Positions 1,798 through 59,068 of a stretch of DNA of 64,000 nt are shown one piece after another. The notes below the pieces were generated by a model. That model was not told the DNA's origin. It did not search any database and was given only the letters and a program-made list of their open reading frames with translations. Source of the stretch: Akkermansia muciniphila (GTDB lineage Bacteria; Verrucomicrobiota; Verrucomicrobiia; Limisphaerales; BJHT01); contig CAMAUZ010000003.1 of assembly GCA_945861535.1 (NCBI GenBank), positions 124,001-188,000 of the forward strand. Reading direction: 5' to 3'. Within the stretch, counting starts at the first letter, position 1. Every line of letters begins with the position of its first letter. The position numbers and the translations under genes are program-made.

Positions 1798-3282
1798 ATG
1801 CAAATCCTCAATTTTCTCTACGTGGTGGCGGGTGTGGTGCTGTTGTTCGGCGCCGCGATTTTTGTCCATGAGTTCGGCCACTACTGGGTGGCGCGGCGGC
1901 GGGGGCTGAAGGTGGAGGCGTTCGCGATCGGGTTTGGGCCGAAGATTTTTGGATGGACCAAGGATGGCATCGAGTACTCGTGGCGGTGGATTCCGGCGGG
2001 TGGCTACGTGAAGCTGCCGCAGATGGTGACTTCGGAGGCGCTCGAGGGGACGGCCGAGGGCGCGGAGAAAATCCCGCCGGCCGAGCCGTTCTCGAAGATT
2101 CTCGTGGCCTTGGCGGGACCGGTGATGAACGTGGTGCTGGCGTTTGCGATCGCGGGGTTTCTCTACGTCGTGGGCGTGCCGGTGAAGGTGAATCCGTCGG
2201 TGGTCGGGTTTGTGGAGCCGGGTTCGGAGGAGGCGAAGCTGGGCATCCTGGCGGGCGACCGGATCGTGTCGGTGAACGGCAAGAAGGTGAAGTCGTGGGA
2301 GGACGTGCATACGATCACATTCCTCGCGCCGGCCAGCGTGCTGCCGGTGGTGCTCGAGCGCGACGGGCAGCGCAAGGAGTACCAACTCGCCGCGAAGATC
2401 AACAATCAGATCGGCCTGAAAATGCTCGGGCTGGAGCCGCGCGATCATCCGATCCTCAAGCGCATTCTCGAGGGCGGTCCGGGCGAGGCGGCGGGGATGA
2501 AGGCGGAGGACGAGGTGATTTCGTTCGGGGGCGTGGCGATTCACGGGCGCGAGCAGTTCATCAATCTCATCAAGCAGCGCGGCGGGCAGAAAACGGTGAT
2601 GATCGTGAAGCGCGCGGGCGAAAAGGTGGAACTCACGGTGACGCCGCTGCTGGATCCGGTGGCGAAAATCGGGCGCATCTCGGTGGAGGTCGGCAGCAAT
2701 GCGAAGGACATGTATGAGATTCAACATCCGCTGCCGTGGGTAATGGTCGCCGACGTGTGGGATCAGATGGTCGGCACGCTGGGAGCGCTGATCAACTCGA
2801 AGCAGACGGGCGTGGGCGCGAAGGATTTGAGCGGACCGGTGGGGATTCTCGCGGTGCTGGGCGCGCAGGTGAACACGGACTACCGGCTGGCGCTGAAATT
2901 TCTCGTGCTGCTCAACATCAATCTCGCCGTGCTGAACATGCTGCCGATTCCCGTGCTGGACGGTGGGCACATCGTGATGGCGATTTTGGAGAAAATCCGG
3001 CGGCGGCCGTTGAGCATGCGGTTGCAGGAGTACATGACCACGGCGTTCGCGCTGATGCTGATTTCCTTCATGCTCTACGTGACCTTCTTCGACATCAAAC
3101 GGATGCCGCTGTTCTGGCACATGTTTAAGCAGGAGAAATCCATCGAACAGCAGCAGCCGTCGCCCGCACCGGAAGCACCGGCGAATGCGCCAGCACCGGC
3201 GACCTCGTCGGCTCCGGCAACCACTCCCGCTCCTGCAACCACGCCGGTCCCCGCTCCCGCGCCAGCGCCCGTCAAACCATGA
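1798..3282 (+). CDS. rseP: RIP metalloprotease RseP (site-2 protease family)
   Basis: Membrane-embedded zinc protease of peptidase family M50, which cleaves anti-sigma factors or signal-peptide remnants within the membrane. The zinc motif HEFGH is at residues 24-28 in the first membrane segment. Two PDZ-like regions follow (about residues 130-290), then the second catalytic motif NMLPIPVLDGGH near residue 380 and further membrane segments. The 494-residue length exceeds the usual ~450 because of a C-terminal tail rich in Pro, Ala and Thr repeats (about residues 455-494), probably disordered. The stop codon overlaps the ispG start in an ATGA, so the two genes are very likely translationally coupled. 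The substrate is unknown here. Confidence 0.95.
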   Translation: MQILNFLYVVAGVVLLFGAAIFVHEFGHYWVARRRGLKVEAFAIGFGPKIFGWTKDGIEYSWRWIPAGGYVKLPQMVTSEALEGTAEGAEKIPPAEPFSKILVALAGPVMNVVLAFAIAGFLYVVGVPVKVNPSVVGFVEPGSEEAKLGILAGDRIVSVNGKKVKSWEDVHTITFLAPASVLPVVLERDGQRKEYQLAAKINNQIGLKMLGLEPRDHPILKRILEGGPGEAAGMKAEDEVISFGGVAIHGREQFINLIKQRGGQKTVMIVKRAGEKVELTVTPLLDPVAKIGRISVEVGSNAKDMYEIQHPLPWVMVADVWDQMVGTLGALINSKQTGVGAKDLSGPVGILAVLGAQVNTDYRLALKFLVLLNINLAVLNMLPIPVLDGGHIVMAILEKIRRRPLSMRLQEYMTTAFALMLISFMLYVTFFDIKRMPLFWHMFKQEKSIEQQQPSPAPEAPANAPAPATSSAPATTPAPATTPVPAPAPAPVKP

Positions 3283-5132
3283 GATACTGCGAGAATCCGT
3301 TTCTGTTCCAACGTCGGCTCACCCGCGAAGTGGTGGTGGGCGAACCCGGTCGCGGCGGCGTCATCATCGGCGGCAAGCATCCCGTGGTGAAGCAGTCGAT
3401 GCTCACCTGCGACACGATGGACACGGCCGAGTGCGTGAAGCAGACGCTCGAGTTGGTCGAGGTGGGCTGCGAGATCGTGCGCATCACCGCGCCGACGGTG
3501 AAGGACGCGGCGAACCTCGAGCACATCGTGCGCGAGCTGCACGCGCGCGGGTGCCGGGTGCCGATTGTGGCGGACATTCACTTCAAGCCCGAGGCGGCGC
3601 TGGAGGCGGCGAAGTGGGTCGAGAAGGTGCGCATCAATCCTGGCAATTACGCGGACTCGAAGAAGTTCGCGGTGAAGGAATACACGGACGACGCGTATGC
3701 GGACGAGCTGCGGCGGATCAAGGAAAAGTTCGCACCGCTGGTGCGGGTTTGTAAGGAGCTGGGGCGCGCGATGCGCATCGGGACGAACCACGGATCGCTC
3801 TCGGACCGCATCATGAACCGCTACGGCGACTCGCCGCTCGGGATGGTGGAGAGCGCACTGGAGTTCGCACGGATCGCGCGCGGGATGGATTATCACAACT
3901 TCGTGTTCTCGATGAAGTCATCGAATCCGAAGGTGATGATCGAGTGCTACCGGCTGCTGGTGGCGCGGCTCGAACAGGAGGGGCCGGACTGGAATTATCC
4001 GATCCACCTCGGTGTCACGGAGGCGGGCGAGGGCGAGGATGGACGCATCAAATCGGCCATCGGCATCGGGTCGCTGTTGTGCGACGGGCTGGGGGACACG
4101 ATCCGGGTTTCGCTCACGGAGGACAGCCCGCGCGAGATCGCGGTGTGCGAGGATTTGCTGGCACAGGTGCCGGTGCTGGCGAATCAGGTAGGGCGCGGTG
4201 TCCTCACCGCGCCGGACGCTGTGGATGGGACGCGGCGCGCTGAGGACAGCGCGCCCTACCCTGCCCTGCCGCTTTCGTACGACCCGTTCGAGTTCGAGCG
4301 GCGCGAAACGCCGGAGACCGACCTCAGCGAGACGGTGCGTTGCGGCGGGGAGCAGACGGTGCGGGTGGTGGTGACGCGCGCGACCTTCGACAAGGTGGCG
4401 CCGAAGATTTTGCCGAAAGCGGATGTGAAGCCGGAGGCGGTGTACGAGGACTTGAACGTGCTCGAACTCGACCCGACGCGGGACCTTCGCATTGAGCAGA
4501 TCAACTGCGATTCGCAGTTGGTGACGGTGCAAGATGGCGTGGCGCTGCCGCCGATCACGGCGTTCCGGCTGCTCGCGGCGCGGCTGAAACGACTGGGCCG
4601 GCGCAATCCGATTTTGCTCAAGGATTGCCTGAACTTCGGGCCGGTGCCGTTGACGCCCGAGGTGGCGTTGCTGCGCGCGGCGGTGAATCTCGGCGCGCTG
4701 CTGGCGGACGGCATTGGCGACGCGATCCTGGTGCGCGGCGAGAGCGGCGCGGGGCTGTCGCTGCGGCTGGCGTTCAATGTTTTGCAGGCGGCGGGGTGCC
4801 GCAGCTTCAAGACGGATTACGTGGCGTGTCCGAGCTGCGGGCGCACGCTGTTCAATCTCCAGACGGTGACGGCGCGCATCAAGGCGCGCACGGTGCATCT
4901 CAAGGGCGTGAAGATCGCGATCATGGGCTGCATTGTGAACGGGCCGGGCGAAATGGCGGACGCGGATTTCGGCTACGTGGGCGGTGCGCCGAACAAGATC
5001 AACCTCTACGTGGGCAAGAAGCCGGTGAAGTTCAACATCCCCGAGAGCGAGGCGGTGGACCGGCTGGTGGACCTGATCAAGGAGCACGGGAAATGGGTGG
5101 AGCCGGTGAGCGAGGAAGCGGTGGCGGTGTGA
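3279..5132 (+). CDS. ispG: 4-hydroxy-3-methylbut-2-enyl diphosphate synthase, long form with an in-frame palindrome
   Basis: Iron-sulfur enzyme (GcpE) that converts MEcPP to HMBPP late in the MEP pathway. The N-terminal TIM barrel opens RRLTREVVVGEPG. The C-terminal [4Fe-4S] domain shows CPSCGRT, then IMGCIVNGPGEMADADFG, giving the three cysteines and the following glutamate. At 617 residues it is the long, three-domain type known from chlamydiae, Bacteroidetes and plants rather than the ~370-residue E. coli type. The start overlaps the rseP stop by four bases. Residues 304-327 are encoded by a 72-bp palindromic repeat (4188-4259) identical in plan to intergenic repeats at 10736 and 42035; the frame stays open through it. 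The insert lies between recognisable domains, so function is probably kept. Confidence 0.95.
   Translation: MRYCENPFLFQRRLTREVVVGEPGRGGVIIGGKHPVVKQSMLTCDTMDTAECVKQTLELVEVGCEIVRITAPTVKDAANLEHIVRELHARGCRVPIVADIHFKPEAALEAAKWVEKVRINPGNYADSKKFAVKEYTDDAYADELRRIKEKFAPLVRVCKELGRAMRIGTNHGSLSDRIMNRYGDSPLGMVESALEFARIARGMDYHNFVFSMKSSNPKVMIECYRLLVARLEQEGPDWNYPIHLGVTEAGEGEDGRIKSAIGIGSLLCDGLGDTIRVSLTEDSPREIAVCEDLLAQVPVLANQVGRGVLTAPDAVDGTRRAEDSAPYPALPLSYDPFEFERRETPETDLSETVRCGGEQTVRVVVTRATFDKVAPKILPKADVKPEAVYEDLNVLELDPTRDLRIEQINCDSQLVTVQDGVALPPITAFRLLAARLKRLGRRNPILLKDCLNFGPVPLTPEVALLRAAVNLGALLADGIGDAILVRGESGAGLSLRLAFNVLQAAGCRSFKTDYVACPSCGRTLFNLQTVTARIKARTVHLKGVKIAIMGCIVNGPGEMADADFGYVGGAPNKINLYVGKKPVKFNIPESEAVDRLVDLIKEHGKWVEPVSEEAVAV
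4188..4259. repeat. Family A tandem-hairpin repeat inside ispG
   Basis: A 72-bp palindrome with 27-bp arms starting GTAGGGCGCG. Each arm is itself a hairpin: the left folds as GGCGCGGTG-TCCT-CACCGCGCC and the right as GGCGCGCTG-AGGA-CAGCGCGCC. The only two differences between the arms fall on the two sides of one base pair, so pairing within each arm is preserved. Length is 24 codons and the reading frame of ispG is kept. Two more copies are at 10736-10812 and 42035-42110, both outside genes. Confidence 0.9.
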
Positions 5133-6418: not shown

Positions 6419-6538
6419 GCAAACGGGTCGCCTGGGTTTTTCGCGAGCCGCGAGAAATGGGCGCGCGGCTTCGGTCGAGGCGACGAAAGGAAAAACCCAA
6501 GCCCGAGCCGGACGCGGCATTTCTCGAGCACCGCCCGC

Positions 6539-7873
6539 TCAGATCACTTCCTTCAGCGGCTCCCAGCCATCGACCAGATACTGCGGGCGGCCGGAGAGGT
6601 CGGGGAGCGTCACCTGATTGGCGTCGAGGCCGACGTTGTGATAGAGGGTCGCGAACACTTCGCCGAAATGCACGGGCCGGTCTGCCGCCTCACCGCCGAG
6701 GCGATCGGTCGAGCCGATGACCTGGCCGGTTTTCATCCCGCCACCAGCCAGCACCGCACAGGCGACGCGCGGCCAGTGGTCGCGCCCGGCGCTCTTGTTG
6801 ATGATCGGCGTGCGGCCAAACTCGCCCCACAGCACGACGGACACATCTTTGTCCAAGCCGCGTTCGTGCAAATCCTGAATCAGCGCGCTGAAGCCCTGAT
6901 CGAGCATCGGCATGTCCTGCCGCAGCGCGTCGAAGATGCGGCCGTGGTGATCCCACCGGCTGAACGCCAGCGTCACGCACCGCGCGCCCGCTTCTACAAG
7001 CCGCCGAGCGACGAGCATGTGCTCCATCAATTTCGGCCCGCCATCGTCGCGGTTTTTTGGATCGCCCTGGCCGTAGCGCGCGCGGATTTTCGGGTCTTCC
7101 TTTTCGATGTCGAGGGCGTCCAGCACCTTGCTCGACGTCAGCATGTCGATCGCCTGCTGGTTGAACGCGTCCACGCCCTCCATCAAACCGCTGTTGTCCA
7201 CCGCGTGCCGGAACTTGTCGAAATTATCGCGCAGCGCCCGGCGATCGCTCAGGCGGTCCATCGTGATGCCGTTGAGCACCATGTCGTCCATGCCCGCGCC
7301 ATCGGGCTTGAAGGGCGCGTAGGGAATCCCAAGGAACCCCGGCTTGCCCGCGTCCGCCCAGCGCATCTCGCCCATCTTCGGGGCCATGCCGACAAACGGC
7401 GGCACCGCGCGGTTCACCGGCCCCTGCAATTTCGCCAGCACCGACCCGAGCGAGGGCCAGCCGCCCGGCGGCTGATTGCGCGCAAGACGGCCCGTCTGGC
7501 ACTGGAAGGCGTTGTGGTCATCCACCGCGCCGACCAGCGAGCGGATCAGCACCAACTTGTCCATCAGGCGCGCCGTGCGAGGGAGCAGTTCGGAAATTTG
7601 AATCCCGGGCACGTTCGTCGCGATCGGCTCCATCACGCCGCGGATTTCGCGCGGAGCGTCGAGCTTCAGATCGAACATGTCCTGATGCGGTGGGCCGCCC
7701 GGCAGGAAGATGTTGATGACCGCCTTGTGCGACTTGCGGATGCCCGCCTGCGCCTCCGCCTGGAGCAACTGGCCCAAGCCCGCGCCGCCGAGGCCGAGCG
7801 CACCGATGCGTAAAAAATTGCGACGGGAAACCCCGTCGCAAAACCGTGTGGCCGCTCCCGGAATGGTCAGCAT
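6539..7873 (-). CDS. DUF1501 family Tat-exported protein, copy 1
   Basis: DUF1501 proteins share the alkaline-phosphatase/sulfatase-like fold and are abundant in Planctomycetes and Verrucomicrobia; their biochemical role is unsettled. The 444-residue product from the ATG at 7873 begins MLTIPG and has a twin-arginine signal, [19 protein letters not shown]. Characteristic segments are [15 protein letters not shown] near residue 60, WDHHGRIFD, and [20 protein letters not shown] in the C-terminal half. It is the last of three tandem paralogues on the minus strand (with 7905 and 9282), separated by 31-75 bases, probably one transcript ending at the hairpin near 6383. A DUF1549/DUF1553 partner, often adjacent to such genes, is absent here. 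Confidence 0.9.
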
Positions 7874-7904
7874 GGTGCCGTGATGGAAAACAATCGGAGA
7901 TCGC

Positions 7905-9206
7905 TCAGCCGACCAGTTCGCGAATCGGCGAATGCCTGGGATCAACCAGATACTGCGGCCGCCCAGCCAGGTCGTTGAGCGTGACCGTGTGGGTGTCGAT
8001 GCCGAGATTCTTGTAGAGCGTCGAGAAGACCTCGCCGATGTGGACCGGGCGTTCGAGCGCTTCGCCGCCCGTCCGATCGGTCGCGCCGATGACCTGCCCC
8101 ATTTTCATCCCGCCGCCGGCCAGCAACGCACTCATCACGCGTGACCAGTGATCGCGCCCCGCAGTCATGTTGACGCGCGGCGTGCGGCCGAACTCGCCCC
8201 ACACCACCAGCGACACATCCTTGTCCATTCCGCGGTCGTGCAAATCCTGCATCAGCGCCGTGACGCCGACGTCCAGTTGCGGGAGCTGCTTTTTCAGCGT
8301 GGTGAAGTTTCCGCTGTGTGTGTCCCAGCCGCCAAAATTCAGCGTCACGCAGCGCACGCCGGCTTCGACCAGCCGCCGCGCCATCAGGAATTCCCGCATC
8401 GTTCCGCCATCGCGACCGGAGACTTTGTAACGTTCCGCATACTGCGCCGGCTCCTGTTTCACATCCAACGCCTTGACCAAACGGCTCGACGTCATCACCT
8501 CGAACGCCTGCCGGTTGAACGCATCCAAACCTTCCATCAACCCGCTGCCGTCCGCGTCGCGGCGGAACTTGTCGAACTCCGCGAGCAGACCCTTGCGGTC
8601 GTCCAGCCGGTCCGTGGTCACGCCGTTCAAGACCATGTCCGAAGTCCCCGGCCCGCTCGGGATGAACGGCCCGTGCGCCGCGCCGAGGAAGCCCGGCATC
8701 GCCTCCTTGCCCGAGACACCTACCAGCGGCGGCACGCCGAGCTGCGCGGAGCCTTGCAGCTTCGAGACCACCGCACCGAGCGACGGCCAACCGCCCGGCG
8801 GCTGCTGCCCGGAGCGGCTCCGGCCCGTCATGCAATGATACGAACTGTGGTCATCGACCTGGCCGACGAGCGAACGGATGACCGCGAACTTGTCCATCAT
8901 CGCCGCCAGCCGCGGCATGTGTTCGCAAATCTGGATGCCCGGCACCTTCGTCTTGATCGGCACGAACGAGCCGCGGATTTCCGACGGGGCGTCCATCTTC
9001 AAGTCATACATGTCCTGGTGCGACGGCCCACCGGGCAGATAGACCATGATGATGGACTTCTGCGACTTGCCGAGGTGCGCCTGTGCTTCGGCGCGCAGCA
9101 ATTCGGGCAACGCCATGCCGCCCATGCCGAGCGCGCCAATCTTGAGGAAGTTGCGGCGGGACACCCCGTCGCAGAACTGCTGAGCTTTTCCAGTGATGGT
9201 TAACAT
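7905..9206 (-). CDS. DUF1501 family Tat-exported protein, copy 2
   Basis: Middle gene of the three-paralogue array, 433 residues from the ATG at 9206 (preceded by an AGAGAG purine stretch). The Tat signal is [19 protein letters not shown]. It keeps the family landmarks [24 protein letters not shown] and [19 protein letters not shown], and ends GRPQYLVD plus a short tail. Compared with its neighbours it lacks the PKM-containing segment after GVPPLVGV, making it slightly shorter. The open frame continues upstream to 9269 without homology to the paralogues, so the internal start, shared as MLTI in all three copies, is chosen. Likely exported to the periplasm; substrate unknown. Confidence 0.9.
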
Positions 9207-9281
9207 AATGACTCTCTGCTTTTCTCGTTGCTGCTGCCCGGCCGGCACCGCCCGTGCGGCACTGGCCAAAAATCATGCCAC

Positions 9282-10616
9282 TTACACCAATTCCTTCATC
9301 GGCTGAAACCCGTCCACAATCGCGTGCGGACGTCCGCTCAGGTCCGGCACCCGCGCCGAGTTCACATCAATCCCCAGCGTGTGATAGAGCGTGGCGAACA
9401 CCTCACCAAACTGCACCGGTCGTTCCGCCGCCTCCGCCGCGTTCCGGTCCGTCGCGCCGATCACCTGGCCCACTTTCATCCCGCCGCCAAAAAGCAACGC
9501 GCACGACACATTCGGCCAGTGATCCCGCCCGCCGTCTTTGTTGATCTTCGGGGTGCGGCCGAACTCGCCCCACACCACCACCGACACGTCGCGCTCCAGT
9601 CCCCGCGCATACAAATCCTGCACCAACGCCGAAACGCCCTGATCAAACAGCGGCAAATCCTGGCGCAGCGCGTCGAAGTTTTTCCCATGATGATCCCACC
9701 GGCTGAACGCCAGCGTCACGCAGCGCACGCCGGCTTCCACGAGCCGCCGCGCCATCAAGAATTGCTCCATCAACTTCGGACCGCCGTCGTCACGATTGTT
9801 CGGATCACCCTTCCCGTAGGTCGCGCGCACGCTCTTGTCCTCGCGCTCGATGTCCAGCGCCTCGACCAGCTTGCTCGACGTGAGCATCCCGAACGCCTGC
9901 TGGTTGAACGTGTCCAAGCCCTCCATCAATCCGCTGCCATCCACATCGCGCCGAAACCGGTCAAACTCCGTCAACAACGCCTTCCGCTCACCGAGCCGGT
10001 CCAGCGTGATGCCGCTCAACACCATGTCCTCTTTGCCCGCGCCATTCGGCTTGAACGGCGCGTGCGAAATCCCGAGAAACCCCGGCGTTCCCGCATCCGA
10101 CCACGGCGCGTGGCCCATCTTCGGCGACAGCCCCACAAACGGCGGCACCGCGCGATTCACCGAGCCTTCCAGCTTCGACAACACCGACCCCATCGACGGC
10201 CAGCCGCCCGTCGGCATCCCGCGATTCGACCGCCCCGTCAGGCACTGCACCGCGTCGTGGCCACCCGTCGCGCCGACGATCGAACGGATGAGCGCCATCT
10301 TGTCCATCAGCTTCGCCAGCTTCGGCAAATGCTCGCAAATCTGGATGCCCGGCACGTTCGTGGAAATCGGTTTGAACTCCCCGCGAATCTCCGCCGGTGC
10401 CTCGGGCTTCAGGTCAAACATGTCCTGATGCGGCGGCCCGCCCGGCAGGAAAATCATGATCACCGACTTGTGTCCCATCCGCTTCCCCGACTGCTGCTGC
10501 GCCTGCAGAAGCTGCGGCAGGCTCAATCCACCCAGTCCGAGCGCGCCGATGCGCAGGAAATTGCGGCGCGAAACGCCGTCGCAAAAACGGGAACTTTGGC
10601 CAGGAATGGTGAGCAT
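9282..10616 (-). CDS. DUF1501 family Tat-exported protein, copy 3
   Basis: First gene of the minus-strand DUF1501 array by transcription order, 444 residues from the ATG at 10616, opening [14 protein letters not shown] followed by the Tat motif [15 protein letters not shown]. It carries [30 protein letters not shown] and [19 protein letters not shown]. It resembles copy 1 more than copy 2 along its length, which suggests successive duplications. The predicted mature protein would be periplasmic. No enzyme activity can be assigned from sequence. Upstream lies a family A palindrome and then plsY on the opposite strand. Confidence 0.9.
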
Positions 10617-10735: not shown

Positions 10736-10812
10736 GTAGGGCGCGTCTGTCCTCAGCGCGCCGCGAACGTGTGGGACATCCCACCGGCGCGCTGGGGACA
10801 GACGCGCCCTAC
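10736..10812. repeat. Family A tandem-hairpin repeat
   Basis: A 77-bp palindrome: left arm GTAGGGCGCGTCTGTCCTCA followed by GCGCGCCG; right arm complementary with one mismatch. Each arm can fold alone as GGCGCG-(T bulge)-CTG-TCCT-CAG-CGCGCC. It sits between the divergent DUF1501 array and plsY. Same family as the copy inside ispG (4188-4259) and the copy at 42035-42110. Confidence 0.9.
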
Positions 10813-13222: not shown

Positions 13223-13573
13223 CCCCGTGGAAACTGCCGAACCCCCGCGCCTTGTCGAGCGCCCTTCCGGCCCGCCACGAAATCGCCATCCGGCCGCGCC
13301 AATCGAGAATCCCCGAGCCCACGACCGCCCGGTTCCGAAATCTGAACCGCTGCGTTCCCCTTTGAATTGCGCACCCGCCCGCCCGCCCCCGTGCAACCGG
13401 CGGGCACCGGCAATCCCCCTTGGTCCTTCCCTTAAGCTTTGAGCTTTATGCTTTGAGCTTTGCCCCCGCCTCCGCGCTTGCCACCCCTTCGGCGCGCTTC
13501 CTATGATGCGCGGCGTGCAGATTCACCGGCCCACCACCCACACCGGACCACCCGACACCATCCGGCACGGCGC
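13223..13573. other. Intergenic region between SRPBCC gene and corA
   Basis: No gene is seen. Positions about 13421-13464 contain a half copy of the family G repeat (CTTAAGCTTTGAGCTTTATG and CTTTGAGCTT), better developed at 29792, 31413 and 60569. The two flanking genes are divergent, so both promoters should lie here, but I cannot identify a convincing -10/-35 pair. Confidence 0.5.
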
Positions 13574-18116: not shown

Positions 18117-18270
18117 GTAGCGCAGATTTCCAAGTCCGGAGTATCGCTGATTTCCAAATCGGCGGGGGGCCGCAGAGTTTCGGACGCGTGCGGCGAGGCG
18201 AGGCATTGCGGGGGCCGGACCGCTCGCGGGTTCGGAAACCCGCGATCCAGCAGACTGGGAAGCCTTCGTC
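18117..18270. repeat. Family C hairpin repeat, degenerate copy
   Basis: Starts GTAGCGCAGATTTCCAAGTC, contains the hairpin GATTTCCAAATC, and has on the right CGCGGGTTCGGAAACCCGCG then CAGCAGACTGGGAAGCC. A better copy is at 40966-41121. It occupies the gap between the divergent pseudopilin and pyrF genes. Confidence 0.65.
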
Positions 18271-18358
18271 ACGGCGGGGCAGAGTGCGGATGCCCCGGGT
18301 CTCCGCTGGCCCTGACTTTCGGCTGGCGGCCAACGACGGGGCTGTTTGAATCGCCGCG

Positions 18359-20098: not shown

Positions 20099-20237
20099 TG
20101 TGGGGCAGGCATCCTTGCCTGCCAGTTGGCGGGGCATCCCTGCCCCGTGTTCCGCCGTGGGGACCATCCCGCCGCCAACCGATGGGAACGCGCGGCAGGA
20201 TGCCGCCCAAACTGGCAGGCTGGAAGCCTGCCCCACA
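20099..20237. repeat. Family B hairpin-array repeat, copy 1
   Basis: Begins TGTGGGGCAGGCATCCTTGC and ends with the mirrored CTGGAAGCCTGCCCCACA. It is a row of hairpins: GGCAGGCA-TCCT-TGCCTGCC, CGGGGCATCCCTGCCCCG, GCGGCAGGATGCCGC and GCAGGCTGGAAGCCTGC. It is inverted relative to the copies at 41166 and 41828. It fills most of the gap 19971-20313; no gene is seen there. Confidence 0.85.
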
Positions 20238-20313: not shown

Positions 20314-22803
20314 TCAATCCAGATAAAGAAACTCATTCGCCCCGAGCAGCGCGCGACCGAGGCTGGCCCATGCGGCGGCGGGGATTTGCGCGGCGGGCGT
20401 TTTCCGGGCCGTGAGTTTTTCGCTGAACTGCCGCAGATAATCCTTCGCGGCCTGCGTTTCCTCCGGCAGCGACGGACGCGCGTAGGCGGTCACAAACGCG
20501 CGCTCAATGCGGCGGGTCTCGTCGGGTTCCGCCGCCACGAGGCGGGTGGAAAACAGCGCGGCCTGTTCGTGCGCGAACTTGTCATTCATCACGAACAGCG
20601 ATTGCAACGGCGTCGTGCTCGGCTCGCGGACGGCGGTGCTCGAGTTGGGGTCCGCGCCGTCGAACAGCGCCAGGAACGGATGTTTCCGCAGCCGCTGCTG
20701 CATCTGGTACACGGTGCGCAGTTTGTTGTCGTACACCGCGAAAAACTGGTTGTGCTGGGTGAAGCTCCAGGTGTTCACCGCCGGGAATGGATGGGCGCCG
20801 CCCGTGCTCGCATCGAGGTCGCCCGCGACAAACAGCAGCGCGTCGCGAATGGATTCCGCGTCGAGGCGGCGGCGATCCGCGCGCCACCACAGGAGATTGT
20901 GCGGGTCGGCGGCGGTGTTGCGCGCCACCGAACCGGCGGCGGCGACCGCGGCGTCTGCCGCCGGGTCGCCGTCGCCGCTGGCCAGTTGCCAGGTGTGCGA
21001 GAGCAGCAGCAGGCGGTGCATCGCCTTCACTGACCAGCCGCTCTGCACAAAACGCGAGGCCAGGAAATCGAGCAGTTCCGGGTGTGTCGGCCGCGTGCCG
21101 CGCGCGCCGAAATCGTTCGGCGTCGTCACCAGCCCGCGCCCGAAATGATGCTGCCACAGCCGATTGACCATCACGCGCGCCGTGAGCGGATTCGCCGGAT
21201 CGGCGATCCAGCCGGCCAGCTCGAGGCGGCCGCTGGTGGCGCAATTTTTCGGCAGCGCCTGGCCGCCGAGAATCTGTGGAAAGCGGCGTGCGACCTCTTC
21301 GCCCGTCCGCTTCGGATCGCCACGGACATGCAAGTGGGCGTTGGTTGCAGTGCCGTCCACCACGGCGTACGCCTGCTCGAAAACCGGCGTGTCGCCAAGC
21401 TGCTTCAGGCGCGCCTTGGCTTCGGTGATGGCTTTGGTGGCCTTGTCAACGCGCCCTTTTTTCTCCGGCCCCGCCGGCTCCTTGTCGATCGCCGCCTTGT
21501 CCTGTTCGAGCTTCTTGATTTCCGCCTCGACCACGGCGGCTTTTTCCTTCTGCGCTTTTTGCAGCGTCTCGAGTTCCGCCTTGGTGATGAGCGGCACGAG
21601 GTCCTTCGGCCGGTTCATGCCCTCGCTGCCGGGATGCGGATAGCGGCTGCTGTCGAAGATGCCGTAGAGCGCGTAGTAATCCTGCGTCGGGATCGGATCG
21701 AACTTGTGGTCGTGACAGCGCGCGCAGTTGAGCGACAGGCCGAGAAACGTACGGCCCAGATTGTCGATGCTGTCCTCGATGGTCAGATGCCGCTCGCCGC
21801 CGCCACCGCCAAAATGCCGCGAGGTCGCAAGATAACCCGTGGCAATGGTGCGCTCGAGTTTCTCGGTCTCGGACTTCGCCGGCAGCAAATCGCCCGCGAT
21901 CTGTTCGCGGATGAACTGGTCGTAGGGCACGTCGCGATTGAACGCCTGCAACACGTAGTTCCGGTATTTGTACGCCTGCGGCACGGGATAATCCGAGGCG
22001 TTCCCGCAGGTGTCCGCATACCGCACGAGATCGAGCCAGTGCCGGCCCCAGCGCTCGCCATACGCGGACGACGAGAGCAACCGATCCACGACGCGCGCGA
22101 ACGCTTCCGACGAACGATCCGCCACAAACGCCGCGACCGCTTCCGGCGTGGGCGGCAGCCCGGTGAGATCAAACGTCACCCGCCGCAGCAACGCGCGTCG
22201 TCCCGCATCCGGCCCCGGCACCACGCCCGCCTGCTCCATCCGCGCGAGCGTGAAAAAATCCACGTCGTTGCGCGGCCACGCATGATCTTTCACCGACGGC
22301 GGTGCAACAGCCTTGACCGGCTGGAAGGCCCAATGTTTGCGGCCTTCCGCGAGGCTCACGCCGTACGCCGGTTTCACCGCTGCGCCGCCCGCCGCGACCG
22401 CCGGAGCCGCGTTCGTGCGCGGGTCGGGCGCGCCGAGTTTCACCCACTCGATGAGGTCGTTGATCTGCGCCTGCGCGAGCCGTTTCTCCGGCGGCATTTT
22501 GAAATCCTTGTCCCAATGCCGGATGCCCTTGATGAGCAGGCTGTCCTCGGGTTTGCCCACGACCAGCGCCGGTCCCGAATCGCCGCCTTTGGCCCAGCCG
22601 TCGCCCGTGTCGAGGCGCAGGCCGCCCTTGAGTTTCTTGGCGCCCGTGCTGTGGCATTCGTAGCAATGCTCGGCCAGCAGCGGCCGGATGCGGCTCTCGA
22701 AAAACGCCATGCCATCCGGGGCCGCCGCCACGGCCGCGGACATCGGAACCAGCCAACCGACCACCAACGCGCGCCGGAGCCACTGTGCAATTTGGAATTT
22801 CAC
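20314..22803 (-). CDS. PSCyt1-DUF1549-DUF1553 domain protein (cytochrome c-like, exported)
   Basis: A large exported protein of the Planctomycetes/Verrucomicrobia-specific class, 829 residues from a GTG at 22803 (the frame runs upstream to 22890). A hydrophobic signal RRALVVGWLVPMSAAVAAA is followed by a PSCyt1 haem-binding motif CYECH, then DUF1549 (with RRVTFDLTGLPPTPE and the CARCHDHKFDPI motif, a second CxxCH), a charged coiled-coil insert (about residues 440-500), and C-terminal DUF1553 (ANPLTARVMVNRLWQHHFG, RRLDAESIRDALL). Such proteins are usually beside a DUF1501 gene; here none is adjacent, the nearest being 10 kb away. Function is unknown. Confidence 0.9.
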   Translation of the reverse strand: MKFQIAQWLRRALVVGWLVPMSAAVAAAPDGMAFFESRIRPLLAEHCYECHSTGAKKLKGGLRLDTGDGWAKGGDSGPALVVGKPEDSLLIKGIRHWDKDFKMPPEKRLAQAQINDLIEWVKLGAPDPRTNAAPAVAAGGAAVKPAYGVSLAEGRKHWAFQPVKAVAPPSVKDHAWPRNDVDFFTLARMEQAGVVPGPDAGRRALLRRVTFDLTGLPPTPEAVAAFVADRSSEAFARVVDRLLSSSAYGERWGRHWLDLVRYADTCGNASDYPVPQAYKYRNYVLQAFNRDVPYDQFIREQIAGDLLPAKSETEKLERTIATGYLATSRHFGGGGGERHLTIEDSIDNLGRTFLGLSLNCARCHDHKFDPIPTQDYYALYGIFDSSRYPHPGSEGMNRPKDLVPLITKAELETLQKAQKEKAAVVEAEIKKLEQDKAAIDKEPAGPEKKGRVDKATKAITEAKARLKQLGDTPVFEQAYAVVDGTATNAHLHVRGDPKRTGEEVARRFPQILGGQALPKNCATSGRLELAGWIADPANPLTARVMVNRLWQHHFGRGLVTTPNDFGARGTRPTHPELLDFLASRFVQSGWSVKAMHRLLLLSHTWQLASGDGDPAADAAVAAAGSVARNTAADPHNLLWWRADRRRLDAESIRDALLFVAGDLDASTGGAHPFPAVNTWSFTQHNQFFAVYDNKLRTVYQMQQRLRKHPFLALFDGADPNSSTAVREPSTTPLQSLFVMNDKFAHEQAALFSTRLVAAEPDETRRIERAFVTAYARPSLPEETQAAKDYLRQFSEKLTARKTPAAQIPAAAWASLGRALLGANEFLYLD

Positions 22804-22906
22804 GGCGCTTCCGACGCGCGCCTGGCGGGGCGTAGTCAGAAGAAGGACCGCGGGTGACGGCGTGACGGCGCGGCGCGCGCCGCGGGTCACCGGCCGCAGG
22901 CGAAAC

Positions 22907-23398
22907 TCAGGTTTTCGTTTCCGCCGCTTTCACCCCTTTCTTGAACGTAGAATAGACGAAAACGGGGATGGAGAGCGCGCCGAGATGGGTGTGGATGAGC
23001 GGGCGGACATCTTCCCACTGGAGGTGGCCGATGCCGGTGGCCAGGCGGGGCAGAGCGACGCTGGTGAGGTGTTCGGTCTCGATGAGCTTGTGCAGTTCGC
23101 GGAGGCAGTGGTTCACATTGCCGAGGCTGGCGTGGCCCGGGTGGGAATGCTCGCTGGCCGCGGGTTCCTGGGTGAAGAGGTTGATGATCCGCCGGCCGCC
23201 GACACCAGTCCACACCCACAAGGTTCCGGGCTTGGGGTGGGTGGTGTGGGAGAAGTGGCGGAAATCTTTGTACATCGCGGGCCAGTCTTGCCGCAGGCTC
23301 AAGGCCAGGCCGGAGTCGAAGTGGTCGTTGGGTGCGACGCCATGAGCGATCGCTTGGGCTTCAGAGAGGAGGAGGTCACCGGTAAGTTCGTATATCAC
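22907..23398 (-). CDS. Macro domain protein (ADP-ribose binding/hydrolase type)
   Basis: A 164-residue single macro domain. Proposed start is the GTG at 23398 (VIYELTGDLLLSEAQAIAHG), where homologous proteins normally begin; an ATG at 23461 in frame is possible. Landmarks: NDHFDSGLALSLRQDWP near residue 25, the glycine-rich GVGGRRIINLFTQ and ALPRLATGIGHLQW, which forms the phosphate loop. The subfamily removes ADP-ribose or Appr-1''-p; which substrate applies is not decided by the sequence. No ADP-ribosyltransferase toxin is seen nearby. It is transcribed away from the YlbF-like gene at 23676. Confidence 0.85.
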   Translation of the reverse strand: MIYELTGDLLLSEAQAIAHGVAPNDHFDSGLALSLRQDWPAMYKDFRHFSHTTHPKPGTLWVWTGVGGRRIINLFTQEPAASEHSHPGHASLGNVNHCLRELHKLIETEHLTSVALPRLATGIGHLQWEDVRPLIHTHLGALSIPVFVYSTFKKGVKAAETKT

Positions 23399-24169: not shown

Positions 24170-24185
24170 GTAGCCGCAGACCTGT

Positions 24186-24412
24186 GTAGCCGCCGACGTG
24201 AGGAGGCGGAAGCCCGGGTCGCGCTCCCGCCGTTGTAGGAGTCGAGGTAACGCGACTCTAACCTGCTTCACCAAACGGCCAGCCCAACCGCCGCACGACG
24301 CGTCGCGAAACCACGTTTCGCTTCCCTGCGCCGTGAGCCAGTCAACGCCGCGAGACCCCGGCCGCGTTTCGCGTGGAAAAAGTTAGAGTCTCGTTACCTC
24401 GGCTCCTACAAC
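24186..24412. repeat. Family D arm and palindromic repeat, family P
   Basis: A single family D arm (24186-24210) precedes a palindrome at 24232-24412 with arms GTTGTAGGAGTCGAGGTAAC and GTTACCTCGGCTCCTACAAC; inner parts GCGACTCTAAC and GTTAGAGTCTCG also pair. Text like this arm recurs near 35688. No gene is seen between 24081 and 24470. Confidence 0.7.
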
Positions 24413-29752: not shown

Positions 29753-29791
29753 AGGCGGTCCCGGGGCTGTGGGTGTAGGAAGATCGGGAGG

Positions 29792-29998
29792 GGAAAAAGC
29801 TCAAAGCCTAACGCTCAAAGCTCAAGGGAAGTTCAAAATCCCAAGCTTCACTGCTACTGACTACGGGATCGGATCCCGGTGGACAGACAAGGAACCTCGG
29901 AGCCGGACGCGCATTGAAACTCGCCACCTGGGCCTGGCTTGAAGCTTGCGCCTTGGAACTTCCCTTGAGCTTTGAACTTTAGCCTTGGAGCTTTTCCC
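29792..29998. repeat. Palindromic repeat, family G
   Basis: Arms AAGCTCAAAGCCTAACGCTC / AAAGCTCAAGGGAAGTTC on the left and GGAACTTCCCTTGAGCTTTG on the right, about 200 bp overall. More copies: 31413-31640 and 60569-60758; half copies near 5255, 13421, 40017 and 45101. It ends at the lysA stop. Confidence 0.75.
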
Positions 29999-35784: not shown

Positions 35785-35887
35785 GTACCGCAGGCGTCCC
35801 GCCTGCGAGTTCGCGGGGCGTCTCGCCCCGAGTCGGTACGGGCGGAGAGACGCCGCCCGAACTCGCCGGCGAGGACGCCTGCGCTAC
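35785..35887. repeat. Family Q hairpin-array repeat
   Basis: A 103-bp palindrome made of four hairpins: CGCAGGCG-TCC-CGCCTGCG, CGGGGCG-TCT-CGCCCCG, GGGCGGAGAGACGCCGCCC and CGCCGGCGAGGACGCCTGCG. On the minus strand it begins GTAGCGCAGG, and that TAG is the stop codon of thpR. A half unit is at 25994. The gap 35549-35784 shows no gene. Confidence 0.8.
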
Positions 35888-36869: not shown

Positions 36870-37453
36870 TGAGCGGGAGTGATACACGCTCACTGGAGAA
36901 ATGGAAGCTCACACCAACGGCGTGGAAATCCTCCTCCCAGCCTGCCCCCTTCCGCCGGCCGAGTACAGCGGCCCCATGCTCCGTCGTCTCGGCCCTCGGT
37001 CTCTCCGCACGCCGGTGCCCGCAGCGGTCCGTCAAACACACCGTAGGCAACCTGAATCTGCCCCCGTTCCCAAAACCGAATTGGCAAAGGAATGGAGGCA
37101 AAGGAATGAGAACCAAAAGTCTCCCTTCCCCATTCCTTTGCCTCCATTCCCTTGCCCCAAATTCCCCTGCCCTGCTCCCACACGCCTGTCGGTGGTGTTC
37201 ATACCGGCCCTGAGATTCGCCTTCCGGCCAGCACCACAAGCCTGCGAAACCCCGTCGCCACCGGCGTTCGCTGAACAATGCGGGTGGGTCCGCGTCTGAG
37301 GCTGGCGACAAAAACCCGGCCGAAATTTTGAACTCATCTCCTGCATTCCCGCCCGCGCCCGAAGCACCCCCGCCCCGGCCCGCGCACGAATATTTTGGCC
37401 GCGGATAACCACCCGCTTCCCGTCCCCCAACGCCCGTCAATCAAGCTCTCCCC
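36870..37453. other. Intergenic repeats between the FtsB-like gene and the PPC protein
   Basis: No gene is seen. Around 37075-37180 a family J palindrome has GGCAAAGGAATGGAGGCAAA facing CATTCCTTTGCCTCCATTCC, followed by CCTTGCCCCAAATTCCCCTG. A second family J copy is at 58968-59068. Near 36970 there is a fragment like family O (GGCCCCATGCTCCG). The flanking genes are divergent, so promoters should lie here but none is evident. Confidence 0.55.
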
Positions 37454-40965: not shown

Positions 40966-41121
40966 GTAGCGCAGACTTCCAAGTCTGCTGTGTCGCGGGT
41001 TTCCAAACCCGCGGGCCGTCCGGCTTCCCGCGACGCCTTGTCTCGACTTACGCGCTCGAAACGCCGCGGCCCCTGCCGATTTGGAAATCGGCGATACAGC
41101 AGGTTTGGAAACCTGCGCTAC
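40966..41121. repeat. Family C hairpin-array repeat
   Basis: Starts GTAGCGCAGACTTCCAAGTC and ends with the mirror TTTGGAAACCTGCGCTAC. Hairpins: GCAGACTT-CC-AAGTCTGC, GCGGGTTT-CC-AAACCCGC, CCGATTTGGAAATCGG and GCAGGTTTGGAAACCTGC. The two outer hairpins differ in two stem positions and both sides differ together, so pairing is preserved. A degenerate copy is at 18117-18270. Confidence 0.85.
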
Positions 41122-41165: not shown

Positions 41166-41305
41166 TGTGGGGCAGGCTTCCAGCCTGCCAGTTCGGGCGG
41201 CATCCTGCCGCCCGTTCCCGACGGCCGACGGCAGGGCCGGTCACCGGGTGGCAACACGGGACAGGGATTCCCCGTGAACTGGCAGGCAAGGATGCCTGCC
41301 CCACA
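41166..41305. repeat. Family B hairpin-array repeat, copy 2
   Basis: Starts TGTGGGGCAGGCTTCCAGCC and ends AAGGATGCCTGCCCCACA. Hairpins: GGCAGGCT-TCC-AGCCTGCC, CGGGCGGCATCCTGCCGCCCG, ACGGGACAGGGATTCCCCGT (imperfect) and GGCAGGCAAGGATGCCTGCC. It directly precedes the S4 gene, which has copy 3 in the same orientation on its other side. Confidence 0.88.
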
Positions 41306-41827: not shown

Positions 41828-41968
41828 TGTGGGTCAGGCTTCCAGCCTGACAGTTCGGGCGGCATCCCTGCCGCCCGTTCCATCGGTGGGCATGGCGCGG
41901 CGTGGCGGCACCAAGAACACGGGGCAGGGATGCCCCGTGAACCGGCAGGCAAGGATGCCTGCCCCACA
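41828..41968. repeat. Family B hairpin-array repeat, copy 3
   Basis: Same plan as copy 2, but the first stem is GTCAGGCT-TCC-AGCCTGAC where copy 2 has GGCAGGCT-TCC-AGCCTGCC: a paired change on both sides of the stem. Further hairpins are CGGGCGGCATCCCTGCCGCCCG, ACGGGGCAGGGATGCCCCGT and GGCAGGCAAGGATGCCTGCC. Confidence 0.88.
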
Positions 41969-42034
41969 CGCGGGGTGTGATTAAAAGTGGGTGAACTGGT
42001 TCTCGGCCAGGTTCAGTGGCGGGCCCGCCGCCGG

Positions 42035-42110
42035 TAGGGCGCGTCTGTCCGCAGCGCGCCGCGGCCCCGTGCGTACCCGCAACGGCGCGCTGCGGACAGA
42101 CGCGCCCTAC
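42035..42110. repeat. Family A tandem-hairpin repeat
   Basis: A 76-bp palindrome, left arm GTAGGGCGCGTCTGTCCGCA then GCGCGCCG, right arm its complement. Each arm folds with loop TCCG. It lies between a family B repeat and the E2 gene; the gap 41797-42309 contains no gene. Confidence 0.9.
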
Positions 42111-42309
42111 CCACGTGCTTGCCTCACCCGCCTTTAATCACACCCCCACACGCGCCTCGCGGGAAAATGCCGTTGCAAATTCGGCGGACGGCCCGGATGG
42201 TCCGCGCGGTTTGCGGGCGGACGCGCGCTGAACCCACCGGTCTGGGTGGCAATTGGCGCGCGTTTTTCATGCCCGTTTCCCGGTTCGTCAGACCGGGGCG
42301 ATTGCGCGT

Positions 42310-45088: not shown

Positions 45089-45158
45089 CGGGGATAAAGC
45101 CCCAAGGTTAAAGCTCAAAGCTCAAGGGAAGCACCAGAGCGTGGAGAAGCTCCAAGGC

Positions 45159-45377
45159 TAAGCCGTGACTATGGAGTGAGGGCGACAGGAGCGCGGCCTT
45201 CAGGCCGCAGAAGCGTGGATACTGTATGGGGCGAGCGAATTTCCAGACTCCTTTTCTGACTCACTATCGGGTGAGTGGAGGTCCGCGTTCGGGTGGTTTG
45301 GAACGTTCGCTGCGGATGAACGTTTCTGCGGCCTGAAGGCCGCGCTCCTGTCGCCCTCACTGCATAGTCACGGCTTA
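45159..45377. mobile_element. MITE-like element, family F, inserted in a family G repeat
   Basis: A 219-bp segment including a TA at each end. Terminal inverted repeats of about 57 bp: AGCCGTGACTATGGAGTGAG on the left, mirrored by CTCACTGCATAGTCACGGCT on the right, both continuing through GGCGACAGGAGCGCGGCCTT. The flanks GAAGCTCCAAGGC and GGTTCAAAGCTCAAGGGA join across a single TA into a normal family G arm (compare 60571-60603). No open frame encodes a transposase, so it would have to be moved in trans. A decayed copy is at 59203-59369 and an end fragment at 52881-52918. Confidence 0.85.
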
Positions 45378-58765: not shown

Positions 58766-59068
58766 TGTAGCCGACGACGTGAGGAGGCGGATTCCCCCCG
58801 CGTTTCGCGTGGGTTCCATCCGCCTGCCAACGTCCGCTCCTCCATTTTTCTGGAGCCATGGACCCAGGCTGCGCTGTTTCGACGCTCGGGTTCCGCGCAA
58901 GTCGGCGGCGACAGCGGTCCGGCGAAAGCGCCGTGGCCAACCGGAATCTGAACCCCAATCCCCAAAACGGATTTGGCAAAGGAATGGAGGCAAAGGAATG
59001 AAGACAAAAAACTTCCCTGTCCCCATTCCTTTGCCTCAATTCCTTTGCCAAAAAACTCCGCTGCCCCA
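58766..59068. repeat. Repeat fragments: families D, O and J
   Basis: A family D arm (GTAGCCGACGACGTGAGGAG) at 58768, O-like text (CATCCGCCTGCCAACGTCCG) near 58819, and a family J palindrome at 58968-59068 (GGCAAAGGAATGGAGGCAAA facing CATTCCTTTGCCTCAATTCC). No gene is seen from 58709 to 59383. Confidence 0.55.

Follow-up and report, generated by a model that had tools for sequence, protein, structure and literature searches.

The stretch of DNA analysed here, called the window throughout, is 64,000 nucleotides long and belongs to a Verrucomicrobiota contig (CAMAUZ010000003.1, positions 124,001 to 188,000). Its main element is a candidate REP dimer of family B, located at 41167-41304. In the plus half, the tag GTGG precedes an outer hairpin, GGCAGGCT-TCC-AGCCTGCC (41171-41189), the linker AGTT, and an inner hairpin, CGGGCGGCA-TCC-TGCCGCCCG, at 41194-41214. 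A spacer then leads to the mirror half, in which the inner hairpin ACACGGGACAGGGATTCCCCGTG is imperfect, while the outer hairpin, read on the minus strand, is GGCAGGCA-TCCT-TGCCTGCC (41281-41300) with its own tag at 41301-41304. The whole is a mirror-symmetric dimer made of two units in opposite orientation, and the outer and inner stems differ within each half. In families B, C, and Q the unit is a tandem pair of hairpins having different stems and the same apex. An unpaired tag stands 5′ of the outer stems: GTGG in B, GTAG in A and C, GTAC in Q, and GGAG in others. The initial annotation, which had presented these families as rows of short hairpins, quoted the B, C, and Q hairpins exactly, but it did not recognise that a tag is present, that a unit consists of two hairpins, or that the dimers are head-to-head. 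When the B sequence was sought in genome contigs, a single record was returned, from Verrucomicrobiota.

Three further dimers are close by. The family C dimer (40966-41121) begins 28 bp past the stop codon of a purU-like gene and is common to G001, a comparison genome from a sister species of the same genus. Its first half is made up of GTAGC, GCAGACTT-CC-AAGTCTGC, the linker TGTGTC (TGTRTC in the consensus), and GCGGGTTT-CC-AAACCCGC; the mirror half consists of GTAGC, GCAGGTTT-CC, and GCCGATTT-CC. In the G001 copy, one tag and three stem pairs are changed. A second family B dimer (41829-41967), also common to G001, begins 33 bp past the stop codon of an S4-domain gene, and its outer stem is GTCAGGCT/AGCCTGAC (41833-41851). 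The family A dimer at 42034-42109 carries GTAG and then a stem of GGCGCG, a bulged T, and CTG-TCCG-CAG; family A stems often have one such 1-nt bulge, as in E. coli-type REPs. This copy is part of a larger insertion, 41974-42151, whose inverted ends are 21 bp long (GGTGTGATTAAA...GGGTGA) and which has a direct repeat of 11 bp, CCCCACACGCG; the whole segment is absent from G001.

The remaining copies are dispersed. One family A dimer (4188-4259) is exactly 72 nt long, or 24 codons, and lies in frame in ispG (3279-5132). As the initial annotation had noticed, paired changes occur within this copy, GGCGCGGTG/CACCGCGCC facing GGCGCGCTG/CAGCGCGCC. The insert is absent from the ispG of G001 and from that of the other relatives whose frame aligned there. 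It sits in a linker, and the linker at this place in G001 differs and is apparently of simple-repeat origin. Simple-sequence repeats of AAAGCTCAAAGCTCAAGGGAAG type, to which the source of that G001 linker may have been similar, occur in several copies in the window (13422-13460, 29781-29831, 45103-45136, and others). Further dimers are found at 10736-10812 (family A), 20100-20236 (family B), and 18117-18272 (family C, degenerate, with matches of 54.6 and 40.1 bits). The family Q dimer (35785-35887) comprises 35785-35836 on the plus strand and 35835-35887 on the minus strand, and its unit starts with GTAC, CGCAGGCG-TCC-CGCCTGCG, and AGTT; covariance model R2, made from B halves, matches Q over its full length. 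A GGAGC-tagged REP pair (GCGGCCT-TC-AGGCCGC) at 45188-45348 represents a further family of the same superfamily.

Other repeats share the window. GTAGCCGCCGACGTGAGGAGGCGG is a GTAG-tagged palindrome with a 10-nt loop, present in six copies including 24185-24215. A two-copy repeat lies at 37061-37161 and 58953-59053, and its first copy folds as a long palindrome. Positions 6535-10589 hold three tandem diverged gene copies resembling DUF1501-type proteins.

Hairpin excess and paired stem changes

Perfect hairpins, defined by arms of at least 8, are more abundant than in simulations. The window alone contains 32 (12-19 simulated), and 1.24 Mb of its own genome contains 505, compared with 276 in an order-2 Markov simulation. 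The excess is carried by four apices, namely CC (75, against 4 simulated), TCCT (48), TCC (33), and TCCC (32), the last three being outside the listed top 15 apices of the simulation. The grouping of the families into one superfamily with a common TCC or CC apex is upheld. Over the same 1.24 Mb, tagged hairpins number 363 vs. 94 simulated, and those tagged with GTAG 69 vs. 8. Their clusters are nearly all head-to-head: the orientations “><,” “>><<,” “>><,” and “><<” add up to 52, and “<>” was seen once. The models match 76 times for C and 85 times for B. Several elements are intergenic, and one lies in ispG.

The stems change on both sides together. Between 41171-41189 and 41833-41851, for example, the B stem goes from GGCAGGCT/AGCCTGCC to GTCAGGCT/AGCCTGAC, just as first reported. 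To look beyond single cases, copies of B and C were gathered with a pairing-blind nhmmer sequence profile. Two-sided changes then amounted to 98 for B (34.8 when shuffled) and 91 for C (34.3 when shuffled), although these cells are not independent events, because the copies are related and some of the variants were copied as subfamilies. Unpaired cells are rarer than in shuffles, and the apex cytosines are invariant (64/64 at two positions in B, 49/49 in C). Covariance models, whose construction and use on the genome and its relatives had been suggested at the outset, also gave covariation far above shuffles: the model-fitted B/Q alignment, which leans to its own structure, scores 0.366, whereas shuffling gives 0.115 and sliding the pairing no more than 0.076. 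On the tag strand, G.T outnumbers A.C (19 v 13 in B, 17 v 9 in C); this is the excess expected if that strand folds, but it is weak. The GTCAGGCT/AGCCTGAC variant is a copied subfamily: it is present at several loci, and at the 41829 locus it was already there before the sister species split.

RAYT genes and matched apices

What might read such units? IS200-type Y1 genes (PF01797) were considered as mobilisers of the hairpins and rejected, their flanks being without tagged hairpins; their loci (L070-L098) were reused as the control for the RAYT-flank tests. The search for a REP-associated (Y1/RAYT) transposase proposed in the initial annotation did succeed, since RAYT genes matching NF047646 are found on contigs C94, C34, C19, and C118. 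They show NHVH or NHYH motifs together with a tyrosine motif, YxxxNP. The flanks of two of these genes contain tagged hairpins of their own type in inverted copies. Around the C118 gene there are seven GTAG-CTCGACATT hairpins in both orientations, six of which are perfect with a CC apex and one of which has an imperfect tip, while the C94 gene is flanked by four GGAGC-GCCGAGC-ATT hairpins. The C94 gene itself (22636-23327; L099, L105, L107) appears to be frameshifted, its profile match being split over two overlapping stretches in different frames. The NHYH-type RAYT at C19:403-756 (L101) lies amid many copies of CCGCGTAAACGCGG within GGAACTCCGAACTC repeats, which are another type of repeat. 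Among the RAYTs found in this genome, none has A, B, C, or Q hairpins in its flanks, so their cognate RAYT is taken to be lost, unassembled, or acting in trans.

In relatives of the same order, the association extends to the two-hairpin families. Of 36 RAYT loci, 27 have at least two like-tagged hairpins; the corresponding counts are 3 of 29 for IS200-type loci and 54 of 300 for random own segments. Models R1-R3, built only from the B, C, and Q halves of this genome, match 12 RAYT loci of relatives over the full two-hairpin length, with E-values from 1e-5 to 1e-14. The best matches of the C model (about 1e-12 to 1e-14) are at L123, L126, L131, and L113, and those of the B model (2e-5 to 1e-11) at L117, L139, L130, L114, L129, L115, L137, and L124; Q does best at L130 and L115. 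The IS200-type control loci gave almost no R1-R3 matches (best E-value 0.0016, none below 0.001), which speaks against the elements being IS200/IS605 ends or derivatives, with the same hairpins at the ends of an IS200-type tnpA. The RAYT phylogeny sorts with REP type. The doublet-type label requires 2 changes on the tree, compared with 10.1 when shuffled, and eight doublet-flanked RAYTs form one clade with support of 99/98. Three RAYTs with C-like flanks group with the C118 RAYT of this genome, whose place is unsure because of its long branch, and those flanked by GGAG or GCT-loop hairpins are elsewhere in the tree; for each of these labels, 0 of 500 shuffles were as clustered. A rule linking guide tag to cleavage dinucleotide (GTGG with CC, GTAC with GT) was viewed by eye and dropped, as there were too few flanks.

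The two hairpins of a unit have the same tip. Outer and inner apices are identical as TTTCCA at L114, L117, and L139, as GTCCC at L130 and L115, as TCTCTGA at L129, as TGGCA at L126, and as TTCCAA in family C. Between RAYT loci the apex thus changes together in both hairpins. Within loci, the longest apex string in common averages 4.96; permuting the loci gives a mean of 3.13, with none of 5000 permutations reaching the observed value, while the identity of outer and inner stems is only mildly raised (0.51 vs. 0.43). These matched apices fit one protein reading both hairpins by their tips, which would also account for the (T)CC tip common to all families here. A comparable pattern could also arise if one hairpin had been partially duplicated.

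Presence and absence between sister species

The orthologous site in G001 lacks the family B element at 41167-41304 and the neighbouring A copy. Among the approximately 16 elements compared with G001, about 12 are not shared. Eight of the 12 breaks in collinearity hold tagged hairpins, as do 10.5% of random intervals, and one orthologous intergenic site contains a B dimer here and a GGAG-tagged dimer in G001. By this presence and absence the elements are mobile, as had been supposed; the pattern is compatible with gain or loss, and so are the empty sites, which bear no RAYT footprint. The four shared elements show about eight stem differences, all one-sided and none compensated. In this small sample, pairing therefore belongs mainly to the spreading copies, and no repair in place is visible.

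It is with these shared copies that a role for the host must be weighed, in which the hairpins would be kept as RNA, as mRNA-stabilising or terminating 3′ ends whose stems are under selection at each site. The C and second B dimers do begin shortly past stop codons, and in shared copies the stems differ less than their spacers. A host function of this kind would however leave it hard to see why only four of about 16 elements persist in G001, why no stem difference among them is compensated, and why the units come as mirror pairs, one of them in frame in ispG. Rfam held no family match for the elements, and its only miRNA matches, all sub-threshold, are to the other palindrome, at 37081-37162. 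As the general explanation this is unlikely, although some copies could have acquired a host role.

The elements would alternatively be MITEs moved by a classical (DDE) transposase, with the hairpins as mere terminal inverted repeats. The insertion around the A copy at 42034 suggests this, since its 21-bp inverted ends and 11-bp direct repeat fit a plain REP move poorly. Those ends occur at one place only in 1.24 Mb, and they are therefore not part of family A; the tags, the apices, and the RAYT flanking also fit a DDE transposon poorly, which makes this origin highly improbable. Perfect palindromes are prone to correction by template switching, and the paired changes, which do occur as shared subfamilies, might be such a mutational by-product with neither selection nor mobility, but this is scarcely credible given that shared copies keep uncorrected one-sided changes and that the tag, the conserved apex, the dimers, the presence and absence, and the RAYT linkage would all be left unexplained.

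A probable two-hairpin variant of GTAG-tagged REPs

Families A, B, C, and Q are very probably REPs (short DNA repeats of palindromic form) of the GTAG superfamily, in which the mobile unit is a head-to-head dimer (REPIN or BIME) moved by a RAYT as single-stranded DNA. Each half has a guide tag of 4 nt, which in B, C, and Q is followed by hairpins in tandem, two per half. The hairpins would fold when the tag strand becomes single-stranded, for example as lagging-strand template. A RAYT (TnpA_REP, an HUH-Y1 nuclease) would then read tag and apex, needing an intact stem but little of its sequence, cut beside the hairpin, and move the dimer as single-stranded DNA. The inner hairpin is presumably also read by the RAYT, and we infer the cutting chemistry, the strand choice, and the donor enzyme for A, B, C, and Q from related systems. 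Published enzyme rules predict just such a fixed tag and apex with free but paired stems, hence the proposal of RAYT-mediated movement. Group-3 TnpA_REP requires GTAG in order to cleave, along with a particular base in the loop and a perfect stem, whose sequence matters only to a limited degree; in vitro, the Marinomonas enzyme cuts at a shifted position when the tag is GTGG or GTAC (PMC8266576).

The initial annotation was right about the superfamily, the paired changes, and the mobility, and its ideas of a RAYT and of structured single-stranded DNA as the probable acting form are supported; its statement that no named family fits is not. GTAG-tagged REPs and REPINs agree with the elements in their tag and inverted dimers, in the length of the stem and the shortness of the loop, and in copy number and association with RAYTs. 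The tag that defines the superfamily, GTAG or GTGG 0-2 nt 5′ of the hairpin, is present in A, B, and C, while Q (GTAC/GTGC) and the GGAG families belong less strictly. Apart from the frequent bulge in family A, stems and loops conform to the fully paired 7-20 bp and the 2-5 nt of the superfamily, copies are numerous, interspersed, and probably mostly extragenic, and inverted pairs are the repeated unit, as in REPINs and BIMEs. The REPtron arrangement, a RAYT flanked by its cognate REPs, exists here for two other REP families, and B/C/Q-like REPs flank RAYTs in relatives. The superfamily is already known, since GTAG-tagged REPs and REPINs have been reported, including in Verrucomicrobia (PMC3733652); what is new is that a unit consists of two tandem hairpins whose apices match. 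In the open-licence literature, no account was found of RAYT-linked REPs constructed in this way.

REP movement is poorly understood, and several REP families whose stems, apices, and tags vary alongside the flanking RAYTs amount to a natural experiment on enzyme recognition. Where two hairpins with different stems have one apex in common, loop recognition is separated from stem recognition, and a unit of two hairpins might serve as substrate for both halves of a RAYT dimer. We tentatively suggest, at somewhat less than even chances, that these REPs are a distinct Verrucomicrobiota class: a single RAYT lineage would recognise both tandem hairpins of each half by the apex code they have in common, and the apices would co-evolve with the enzyme while the stems drift freely.

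The closest known relatives are the GTAG-tagged REPs (Di Nocera et al., 2013; PMC3733652), exemplified by GTAG-20 of Opitutus terrae, which has GTGG. Like the families described here, they have an unpaired 5′ tag, stems of 6-13 bp, loops of 2-4 nt, complementary stem variants, head-to-head dimers, many copies (they are abundant in O. terrae), a Verrucomicrobia host, and an association with RAYTs. They differ in that B, C, and Q have a second hairpin with the same apex immediately behind the first and that Q has GTAC, the O. terrae families being compared by description and not by consensus. REPINs likewise consist of two inverted REPs as the mobile unit, with a RAYT proposed in trans and with compensatory changes (Bertels and Rainey, 2011; PMC3116915; formal REP definition in PMC6006769), but a REPIN half is a single REP, whereas here it is a tandem hairpin pair. 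The group-3 REPtrons of Stenotrophomonas and Marinomonas (Corneloup et al., 2021; PMC8266576) also have a perfect palindrome, a loop that is read, and a stem sequence of limited importance; contrary to the (T)CC apices found here, their loops are GCT and TTTA, and their hairpins are single. Finally, structured spacers or double palindromes accompany the REP units of CGTC-3 in A. tumefaciens and the 607 TIRs in P. putida (PMC3733652). The extra stem-loops there are described as spacer features or as unrelated, whereas in the elements described here the outer and inner apices match and change together.
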